In this document: one piece after another, positions 31,256 to 34,814 of the stretch | How positions within the stretch are numbered: position 1 is the first letter of the stretch | Layout of the letters: the number at the start of each line of letters is the position of its first letter | NCBI GenBank assembly: GCA_001466705.2 | Contig: LATX02000180.1 | Span: 248,001 to 312,000, forward strand | DNA length: 64,000 bases | Reading direction: 5' to 3' | Origin: Moniliophthora roreri | Taxonomy: Eukaryota > Basidiomycota > Agaricomycetes > Agaricales > Marasmiaceae | Made by a program: the position numbers and the translations under genes | The notes under the pieces: generated by a model | Databases searched by the model: none | What the model saw: only the letters and a program-made list of their open reading frames with translations | What the model was told of the DNA's origin: nothing

Positions 31256-34200
31256 TCATGAGGCAGTAAACTTGATCACGCTAAGACTCAGTCCGGGAAC
31301 GTCGTAACTGAAGTTCTGGCCCACGGTGATGGTCTTCGTGGTGGGTTGAATGCTGTTTGGGTTGCTGGGCGTATTCGATGCCCCACTGTTGGCAGACAAC
31401 ACGTCGACAGATGCGCTGGAGGCAACATTGCTCCATGGAAGAGCGAAGGCGAGAGTTTGGGCGCTGGTGCCAGTGTTGGCGATCTTAGCAAATGAGATCA
31501 TAGTTAGTATATACTTGATGCGAGCAAGACAAGCGGTTTTACCTTGATGATAATGTTGTTAGAGCCGCTCTTGACCACACTCCATTGGAGGGCACCACTC
31601 CTAGCGGGAAGAGTGCTGGAAATGTATTGATCCCCACGGTTGTTACCGAAGAGCTAGACTCAAAGGTCACCGACAGTCGTTAACCTTAGCGTAGATATCT
31701 ACCTTCTGGACATAGTAACTGGCAGACTTGACAACGTTCATAGCGCTTTGGGAGTTCAAAGTCAGTGGTGTGACTATTCATGAACATGATTCACGTACTC
31801 ATAGGCAACAAGGTTAGGGGACTTGCATAGAAAGGGTTAGCACTAGATATAGAAGGAAGCATGAGCGAATTACCCATTGGGTTCCGGAGACATGCTGTGA
31901 GTACAAGGATTAGTATTCGTCCACCTCATGTATAATATGGTGAACTGACGTTAAGCAAAGGAGCGTAACAAGCAGCAAACACGATATCGCTATTACGTTC
32001 GATACCAGTCATGTAGGCTGCTTCAGAAACAGCGCCTAATCACCAGCGATTCAACGAGCAGAGAAGCATAGAATCAGTAGAGATGCACCTTGAATAACAG
32101 GGTAAGGCAGACGGTTGTTCCAAATGTCACTGTCGACGGTAGAGATGACGGCGTATTCTCCCTAATTTAGAGTCAATACAGTCACGGAAATGATTTGGTT
32201 CTTTGTATACCTCAAAGTATTTTGTTCCATCACGCTGTGAACGACTTCAGTTATATCCTAGAGTCAAATTCTGAACTGGTCCTTACAGCAAGATCGTCGT
32301 AGAAGAAAGTGTTCTTGGCGAACCATGCTATGAGAAAGTACGTTGAAATAACCGAGTGAGTATAGCGGAGGAAATGGCATACAGGGACTCTGGTATACGT
32401 GGTGATCGCGTGCGGGAGGCTTAGGGCTGTAAGTTGTTCCCACATTGTCGGTGTGAATGAGAGCTGCAGGTGGTATTCGTCAGGGACATAGAAGGCACAG
32501 TACTTGATCGTGACACACTGAGTTGAGGGAAGGCAGCATGAATTGGATTGTAGAAGGCCCTCCATCGGTATTGGTAGCTAAAAGAACTTGAGATAGCCTT
32601 TTGCAGACGAGCTCCATTGGATTCTCACGTGGTGGGGTTAACGAAGTCCTTGATTGCACAGGTCAGCCACATTGCGTTTCACGTTACGCATTACGCCTAT
32701 ACACGTACCTCGTTTCCGATCTCAACGTATTGCAACTTGAAGGGTTCGGGGTGTCCCAGTTGTGCTCTCAGAGCAGCTGAACGAGCTCTTTTCAGTCTGC
32801 GGAAGTTTCGAGTGAAGCGACTCGTTTACCAGCGGAGCTCTTAGCAGGGTCACCGATTACGAAGTTGATCTAAAGAAGCAATGTTAAGAGTGCTCAACCG
32901 CAGAGGTAGTGGCATACTTGATCAATGGCTTCCTGAACATATGGTCCGAGCTGGTCTTCTGGCACGCTGCTACCAGAACCACCGCTGAGTGCGAGACCTG
33001 GCGAGGGTCAATTCACATGTCGGTCTATTGTGCTGGCTTGAAGACCTACCGGCCCAGACTGCCATGATTGGCTCCATTCCGCCATCTTCACACCACAGGA
33101 GATAGTCGTAGAGACCGAGGCCACTGTCGTCTCAAGTCAGTCACCCGTGCCACCGATTTGAAGCATTGGAATTATGTACTCAGTGTTGTAATAGCCCCAA
33201 GTACCCTGGCGTCCCGGACGGTCAATAAGATCACCGACTGTCTGACGCCACTTCCACCTGCCGTCTATGGATACGCCCTGGTATTTTGGTCAGTGACAAG
33301 TGAAATAGTACCCAAGCGTCCATCGCACCTCCTGTAGATCAACGTCAGTGAGCTAATTCGTATCAAAGCTAGTACTATATGACTTACGAGGTTGTTGCCC
33401 CCAGGGAATCGGAAGACGCAGGCTTGATGTCGACGAGAGCCTGAGCAATGTCAGCCCTCATCCCGTTCTCTCTGTTCTTGAAGGTTGGCGGAAATAGTGA
33501 GAGCATGGCGAATCGGATAGTCTTTCCGGAACCGGCAGCACCATCGATGGTTATGACGAATTTGTCCTGAGCGTTTGAAGCTGAAGTGGTAGGGGTAATG
33601 GAAGCAGTGACCTTCTTCCAGGTTGTTTGGCTTCCAGAGAGTGCGACATTGGCGCTTCCGAGAACTTGGCCACCATTAGTTTGAAGGCTGACGACGGCGT
33701 TACCAGAGAAAGACGTGGAGCTTGGGAAGCGATAGTAAAATGAAGCCTTGTAGGTTGAGCCCGCAGTGACTTTCATACCTAAAAAAAAAAGAGTAAGTAA
33801 GCGCTTGTCATGGAATGTCAAGTGACTGAACTCACCCCACCAGCCATCGTTGCTGAATCCAACGCCTCCGCTTTTTCCGCTCGGGATGGTCAAAGAAAGG
33901 GCATTCTTAAGGGAGCTAGACACAGCGTCTGCCACGACGGATATCTGACCACCATTTACAGCGGCCCAGTGACTCAAAGCTCCCGATGAACCAGCCTGCA
34001 CGTTCTGGAAAGCACGATTTTGGAGCACTGTGATTGGAAATGAGAATGTGATGGCGAAAAAATACATGTAATAACCTACTTTCTCCGTAAAGACCGCCAT
34101 CACCGCTCTTCGTGCATATCAGATCTTAGCGTCGGTTCTGAAGCGTAGAATATATAATGTTGCTTACGTGCTAGAGATTACCGGGTCAACACCACTGTCA

Positions 34201-34814
34201 TCTTTAATGACTTTACGAAGAGACGGGGAACTCACGTTAATATCCTATACAGGGGTCGCGAGTGCATTTTAAGTGATTTAAGCGAATTGCTTCACAACTA
34301 GTTCCTCACCTCGAACATCAAACCCCCTTGAAACGGATGTAACGTAAATAGCAGTAGCACTCAACCCCGTAAACGGCTTACAGAGAGTTGTAGGGATCGG
34401 GTGGGAAGCAGTAGAGCTAACGCGGACAGTGGTTGCTGCGGGAGCTGCTGTTGCTTGAGTGGTTGGTGCTGCGGGCGGATTGCCGCTGCTCGGGAGACAT
34501 TGGCTGTAGTCTAGCGATTTCCAGTCAGCAATGATTGGATGGCAGCATCAAAAAGAAGTTGACAAGGATTCTGGACCACACAAGAAGAGCTAAAAGGATA
34601 GTCATCAACTAGGATGGCCTAGGTTAAGCTGATTATTGCCCTCACCCGGAGGCGCAAGTCGTAGATCCACTCCAACCGATTCCACCACCTGCGAGATTAT
34701 AAGTGATGTCGGATACTCATGATCGTGCATAAATAGACCCGTACATTGACTCCAAACGGGGGACTGAGCGGATGCTAGAGTAGCGAGACCGACAAGAGTT
34801 AGGAGAGTGAGCAT
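31256..34814 (-). CDS. GH51 alpha-L-arabinofuranosidase with N-terminal CBM1
   Basis: 28 exons in 3.6 kb: 34814-34745, 34688-34646, 34589-34564, 34510-34382, 34326-34310, 34244-34236, 34170-34168, 34107-34080, 34027-33836, 33778-33388, 33331-33329, 33277-33180, 33123-33050, 32997-32918, 32869-32830, 32785-32709, 32648-32629, 32577-32519, 32463-32383, 32327-32287, 32234-32211, 32161-32089, 32035-31950, 31894-31874, 31821-31799, 31745-31703, 31653-31543 and 31483-31256. The product is about 696 residues. A signal peptide (MLTLLTLVGLATLASA) is followed by a CBM1 cellulose-binding module (WSQCGGIGWSGSTTC, YYSQCLPS), a Thr/Pro/Ala linker and a GH51 catalytic domain: EDINHSGDGGLYGE, FRFPGGNNLEG, acid/base Glu in YVEIGNED, nucleophile Glu in YFEGEYA. 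It releases arabinose from arabinoxylan or arabinan outside the cell. One base is missing near 33418 (see findings), so the frame is broken as sequenced. Confidence 0.92.

Follow-up and report, generated by a model that had tools for sequence, protein, structure and literature searches.

Results

A CBM1-GH51 gene with exons of 3 and 9 nt

The window, meaning the whole 64,000-nt stretch of DNA from the cacao fungus Moniliophthora roreri that was analyzed, carries on its minus strand a CBM1-GH51 gene of 28 exons (31256..34814), whose product comprises a signal peptide-like start, a CBM1, a linker, and a GH51 alpha-L-arabinofuranosidase. The 27 introns of the gene are 48-65 nt long. In the gene model, exon 3 ends at 34564, and the intron at C82 33049-32998 (minus strand) has corrected bounds. 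A 183-aa piece of the window protein matched 6zps (4.7e-56), and the closest database proteins among the matches listed were the Moniliophthora roreri entries P0001 (strain MCA 2997; 98%) and P0002 (97%). PF00734, PF02018, PF06964, and PF22848 are listed for both of these entries, which are near-identical to the window protein. Its homology to MgGH51, together with PF22848 and PF06964 via P0001 and P0002, places the protein in the fungal branch of the GH51 alpha-L-arabinofuranosidases.

Exon 11 of this gene consists of the three nucleotides GAG (33329..33331, minus strand), is in phase 0 on both sides, and encodes the Glu of FPGGNNLEG. Upstream of it lie exon 10 (391 nt, 33388..33778, minus strand), the 3' end of which encodes FPGGNNL, and intron 10 (56 nt, 33332..33387, minus strand; GTAAGT...CTACAG). 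Downstream, intron 11 (51 nt, 33278..33328, minus strand; GTGCGA...TACCAG) is followed by exon 12 (98 nt, 33180..33277, minus strand), which starts with GVSIDGRWKW. Each of the two introns contains a CTGAC branch-like site, with the A 13 nt before the end of intron 10 and 12 nt before the end of intron 11, and GAG therefore has GT-AG introns with a plausible branch site on both sides, as a microexon should. The arrangement CTACAG|GAG|GTGCGA with flanking introns of 56 and 51 nt, which an earlier note on this DNA had described, is thus indeed present on the minus strand.

That note had also counted two 3-nt exons in one 28-exon gene, and our model of 28 exons contains the second one as exon 7, CAC (34168..34170, minus strand), which encodes the His of DINHSGDGG. 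It is separated by intron 6 (65 nt, 34171..34235, minus strand) from the DIN and by intron 7 (60 nt, 34108..34167, minus strand) from the SGDGG of this motif. The DIN is itself encoded by a separate exon, the 9-nt exon 6 with the sequence GATATTAAC (34236..34244, minus strand; Asp-Ile-Asn). Between 34245 and 34107, the coding sequence E|DIN|H|S accordingly takes up three introns of phase 0 over no more than 12 coding bases, with a 9-nt exon followed by a 3-nt exon.

GAG is the only direct source of the Glu

All possibilities of bridging NNL and GVSID with zero, one, or two introns were enumerated, permitting GT or GC donors, AG acceptors, and introns of at least 30 nt. This resulted in 14 in-frame, stop-free bridges, only one of which reads L-E-G directly, namely GAG between introns of 56 and 51 nt; one further bridge of the 14 has a Glu but with four extra residues. 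A single intron or a shifted exon boundary as the origin of the Glu was rejected, as no direct L-E-G was obtained by such means. When the Glu and His spans of both the window gene and its paralog (described below) were considered, each of the four spans had exactly one direct L-E-G or DIN/DIS-H-S bridge.

Spliced alignments, in which any exon length was allowed and for which we chose the weights ourselves without training, gave the same result. With all four guide proteins, exon 11 was part of the best alignment of the window gene, and its omission cost 18 score units and left a one-residue gap. The CAC exon was likewise in the best model with four of four guides and is the unique direct bridge of its span. 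Over all 16 guide-by-site trials (four guides, window gene and paralog), the best model contained both 3-nt exons, and dropping any one of them lost 12-20 score units and produced a one-residue gap at that place.

Chance occurrence of such a pattern was assessed with dinucleotide shuffles. An AG-GAR-GT was found in 129 of 20,000 shuffles of the 110-nt Glu span of the window gene, and in 18 of 20,000 once a minimum of 45 nt was set for each intron. The corresponding AG-codon-GT counts per 20,000 shuffles were 92 for the paralog Glu, 323 for the window His, and 101 for the paralog His. With this length limit on both introns and, in addition, a branch-like site ahead of the upstream AG, 5 shuffles per 20,000 remained for the Glu and 23 for the His of the window gene, against 3 and 2 for those of the paralog. 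In all tests applied, the GAG at 33329-33331 held up as a real exon of 3 nt and as the source of the Glu in FPGGNNLEG, as had been proposed. The additional view that this Glu belongs to a near-invariant GH51 motif can be upheld for the fungal branch, where the residue is kept, but not for GH51 as a whole, as the three other GH51-type PDB chains with alignments shown have a gap at this position.

A frame break upstream of the exon

The assembled copy contains a reading-frame break, one base short, at about 33413..33424 (minus strand), just upstream of FPGGNNL. It lies 25-36 coding bases before GAG, and the assembled copy is thus not continuous into the exon. P0002 falls out of frame at the same place and also lacks DIN, the His, the Glu, and GVSIDGR. 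The P0001 protein of strain MCA 2997 has a continuous frame there and contains the Glu, in a model without the DIN-His region. The break is either an assembly error or a frame break of the isolate itself, and neither has any bearing on the reality of the GAG exon. On the strength of the break and of P0002, the window copy could be viewed as a recent pseudogene or an assembly error, with GAG as a relic at this locus that is real in the family. We consider this possible but rather improbable, as the two parts of the gene, when read separately, show no other break or internal stop, and as P0001 is continuous; moreover, such a reading concerns the function of the gene in this strain and not the existence of the exon.

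The paralog shares the tiny exons and is represented by spliced RNA

A search of the genome (59.4 Mb, 154 contigs) for further GH51 loci matched one other locus, C72:829444-832364, which is 48-73% identical to the window gene, depending on the piece, and 57% identical across the longest piece. The positions given in the following are local to this locus as it was read (L020). The paralog has 29 exons and 28 introns of 48-80 nt that sum to 1,524 nt. It contains a 3-nt GAG exon (L020 2164-2166) at the same codon position and in the same phase as exon 11, a 3-nt CAT exon (L020 1226-1228) that corresponds in the same way to exon 7, and a 9-nt exon (L020 1165-1173) as the counterpart of exon 6. As a side aspect, a probable GC-AG intron with a GCGAGT donor is found at L020 3271-3319, and its counterpart in the window gene is a GT-AG intron (32286-32235).

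CAC in the window gene and CAT in the paralog differ merely at a silent site. The paired introns of the two genes are no more alike than shuffled sequences, 1998, 1115, 892, and 1049 of 2,000 of which scored as high. As the 3-nt exons are at the same places while the introns around them are unalike and the His codons differ silently, the splitting of the exons predates the duplication, and the 3-nt exons have outlasted the turnover of the surrounding introns.

The entry P0011 (longest contig 2,148 bases) stems from the source "lgn", which we take to consist of assembled public read sets. It is identical to the product of the 29-exon paralog in 650 of 650 residues and includes both the Glu and the His. 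Outside the reading frame of this entry, 195 contig bases remain, too few for 28 introns with a total of 1,524 nt, and the contig must therefore come from spliced RNA. So both 3-nt exons are precisely spliced in, in M. roreri or in a fungus with an identical protein. A comparable transcript of the window gene was not found among the matches listed in the three protein searches; by analogy with the paralog, GAG would be included in the window gene's own RNA as well.

The earlier note had suggested a relaxed process of intron gain, by which conserved codons were split, as one of two possible explanations. The idea of such a process, acting recently, found no support, as the paralog shares the 9-, 3-, and 3-nt exons and as several orders of fungi carry the matching annotation scar (see below). 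A recent intron gain or tandem duplication was also considered and rejected, as the intron pairs beside the 3-nt exons have no clear similarity. The best match within the GAG intron pair of the window gene, TCACTGAC, which is the branch-site region, was equalled by 107 of 2,000 shuffles, and for the other three intron pairs 1,812, 1,478, and 1,719 of 2,000 shuffles scored as high.

Homologues in other fungi

Three protein searches, with the best 120 matches of each, yielded 180 homologues. Twelve of these were transcript-like, defined by a limit of under 1,000 contig bases that are not part of the reading frame (under 600 in 10 of the 12), three further entries also had short contigs, MgGH51 as a crystallized protein was counted apart, and the 164 others are mostly, not provably all, genome predictions. 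The Glu was present in all 12 transcript-like entries and the complete DI[S/N]-x-S segment in 11 of them. As the three further short-contig entries have both residues, the Glu is found in 15 of 15 short-contig entries; none lacks it, which bears on regulated skipping at the level of assembled entries rather than of reads. MgGH51 also has both the Glu and the His.

At the Glu site of the 164 other entries, the residue is present in 87, exactly one residue is missing in 51, 12 are garbled, four have Q or K, and 10 are without the anchor. The His segment is complete in 27, lacks the His alone in 23 and all four residues in 20, is garbled in 18, and has no anchor in 76. Comparison of the transcript-like entries with all 164 by Fisher's test gave 0.0013 for the Glu and 1.3e-7 for the His segment, with related proteins treated as independent. 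The S7.9 and S7.3 models of Serpula lacrymans agree in 628 of 628 residues, and the Glu is their sole difference, and the Psilocybe genome model P0046 agrees with the transcript-like P0070 in 611 of 650 residues, with the His as the sole gap.

Models that are one residue short come from Sanghuangporus (Hymenochaetales), Dentipellis (Russulales), and Plicaturopsis (Amylocorticiales), and likewise from Suillus, Serpula, Trametes, Pleurotus, and Mycena, genera of the Boletales, Polyporales, and Agaricales. Conservation of the exons between genes was thus found in the paralog by DNA and in other species by way of protein models; scans of genome contigs and viral contigs returned no related DNA from other fungi. 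The simplest reading of these models would be that one pair of 3-nt exons is old and is overlooked by gene finders, and single cases in which one residue is missing may be real losses. On this basis, the 3-nt exons look old and widely misannotated, with an age that is suggested by the protein models of other species.

Two individual entries deserve mention. P0101, the twelfth transcript-like entry, starts with MNPAFWSVQHSGDGG and reads SVQHSGDGG, as if translated from the intron just before the His. It possibly represents an RNA in which the intron before the His was retained and the intron after it had been removed, which would hint at an order of removal; alternatively, its start could be a truncated end. 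The second entry, P0136, is a broken GH51 model labelled Trametes cinnabarina, which we take to be the same species as Pycnoporus cinnabarinus. This model is in the databases despite a statement in the Pycnoporus cinnabarinus genome paper that no GH51 was found (PMC4101180).

Splice signals and the proposed sequential removal of introns

All introns that flank the 3-nt exons (48-65 nt) begin with GT, end with AG, and have, 8-15 nt before the end, a branch-like site that is CTNAY or a near match to it. Their donor and branch scores are ordinary. Against 44 comparison introns, two of which, the introns at C82 33049-32998 and L020 3271-3319, were mis-set, the acceptors of the eight introns around the 3-nt exons ranked 14, 2, 34, 6, 8, 18, 9, and 16, and seven of the eight were thus below the median of this set; rank 2 belongs to the intron after CAC. 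The base after the AG is perhaps the origin of these low acceptor scores, and no such weakness was seen at donors and branch sites. Joining of the outer sites would require introns of 110, 109, 128, and 105 nt, whereas all other introns of both genes have 48-80 nt.

As the other possible explanation, the earlier note had raised a dedicated mechanism for the recognition of tiny exons, perhaps recursive or stepwise splicing. One could invoke recursive splicing, a special factor for 3-nt exons, or a nested stwintron because two 3-nt exons and a 9-nt exon occur in one gene, because factors binding to splice sites that are 3 nt apart face a steric difficulty, a general argument made in PMC8378409, and because the weaker acceptors would leave room for a helper. 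Recursive splicing was rejected, as the acceptor is followed by GAGGTGCGA and the exon thus begins with GAG and not with GT, so that no donor is regenerated at the junction. A stwintron was rejected as well, as the sole direct Glu bridge in the enumeration consists of two complete introns side by side. With complete signals in all four flanking introns and ordinary intron lengths of 48-65 nt, we regard any dedicated mechanism as very improbable.

Very little credit can be given to the idea that the Glu is usually skipped by one 110-nt intron from NNL to GVS, with GAG as a chance AG-GAG-GT, since this direct join, although in frame, used in 51 of the 164 mostly genome-predicted homologue models, and compatible with weak acceptors at seven of eight sites, has against it the spliced RNA of the paralog with both 3-nt exons, the Glu in every one of the 15 short-contig entries (or of the 12 that are transcript-like by the stricter limit), an intron length beyond that of any other intron of either gene, and the rarity of AG-GAR-GT in shuffles of both Glu spans.

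We therefore favor constitutive inclusion, and hold it to be very probable that GAG goes back to an early Agaricomycete ancestor, encodes an ordinary conserved residue, and is included by two ordinary U2-type splicing events. In such splicing, introns of about 53-55 nt would each be recognized as a unit, from the 5' splice site via the branch point to the 3' splice site, and exon size would then hardly matter. Either intron could be removed first, as the remaining intron would keep its complete signals. Whether the upstream intron is still present or already removed, GAG would occupy positions -3 to -1 of the downstream donor, and a 3-nt exon would thus be just long enough for these donor positions. 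For GAG to be skipped, the two outer sites would have to be paired over 110 nt, or double the length of a usual intron, which would make inclusion the default. Given separate signals for each intron and the 105-128 nt that skipping would take, sequential intron definition suffices, and the stepwise removal of both introns would be expected as its ordinary course. Intron definition with sequential removal is what we infer for M. roreri. This is in line with the description of fungi as mainly using intron definition and having few cassette exons (PMC2397502), and with microexons of C. elegans whose neighboring introns are very short (49-58 nt) and for which no help by PRP-40 is reported to be needed (PMC8378409).

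Discussion

Ultra-small exons have been described in other systems, and the cited accounts permit a comparison with the GH51 exons. The closest case is CYP621A of Fusarium, with a 1-nt exon that is documented by RNA reads and was missed by gene models; its authors present it as the second reported 1-nt exon, after that of Arabidopsis APC11 (Nelson and Syed, 2026, PMC12940212). Both systems have an ultra-small constitutive exon between fungal introns, within a conserved motif that cannot be assembled without it. CYP621A is an ascomycete P450 and its exon has 1 nt, whereas a basidiomycete GH51 gene and its paralog each contain two exons of 3 nt, both of them whole codons in phase 0, together with one of 9 nt. 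Conserved plant microexons, among them the 1-nt exons of APC11 and VPS55, are described as old, mostly included, and pervasively misannotated (PMC8831610), and the GH51 exons resemble them in these respects; the plant microexons were found with large RNA-seq sets, unlike the GH51 exons.

Within the Agaricomycetes, microexons with a shortest exon of 6 bp are reported for P450 genes of Phanerochaete chrysosporium, where introns of 45-55 bp are found next to the tiny exons; in contrast to the GH51 exons, class-wide conservation is not part of that account (PMC1184071). The 3-bp exon of Drosophila homothorax is likewise an evolutionarily conserved 3-nt exon, but it is described as arising from a longer exon by a developmentally regulated choice of an alternative 5' splice site (PMC7392893), of which there is no sign in GH51. 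Stwintrons are complex fungal intervening sequences that are also removed in consecutive reactions. In these, an intron sits within a splice signal of a second one (PMC6616335), whereas the GH51 introns are adjacent and have all of their signals. Xlr2 of Trichoderma virens has a filamentous-fungus microexon as well, which has 20 nt and an inclusion that is switched by glucose (PMC11121469), and no sign of regulation is seen in GH51. Among the matches listed from the open-licence PMC literature, we found neither the GH51 exon pair nor a conserved mushroom exon of 3 nt reported. What is new here is the pair of 3-nt exons, the fact that it was conserved through a duplication and apparently across a class, and the extent of the misannotation.

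With 51 of the 164 other homologue entries one Glu short and only 27 of 164 with a complete DI[N/S]-x-S segment, conserved sites will often be incorrect in enzyme sets, models, and synthetic genes that are based on database entries. The conserved pair of 3-nt exons, present in a gene and its paralog, offers a natural test of the minimal exon size under intron definition, and the same pair also tests the order in which neighboring introns are removed. A wider view combines three points, namely that the cluster of tiny GH51 exons is ancient and class-wide, that exon size has no floor, and that many whole-codon exons are hidden in other genes; that all three hold together has, in our estimation, an even chance. 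If so, the cluster of 9-, 3-, and 3-nt exons would predate the split of Hymenochaetales, Russulales, Polyporales, Boletales, and Agaricales, and fungi that define introns would effectively have no lower limit of exon size. Many basidiomycete genes would then hide whole-codon exons that are lost in present annotation, and hundreds of catalogued enzymes would lack conserved residues.
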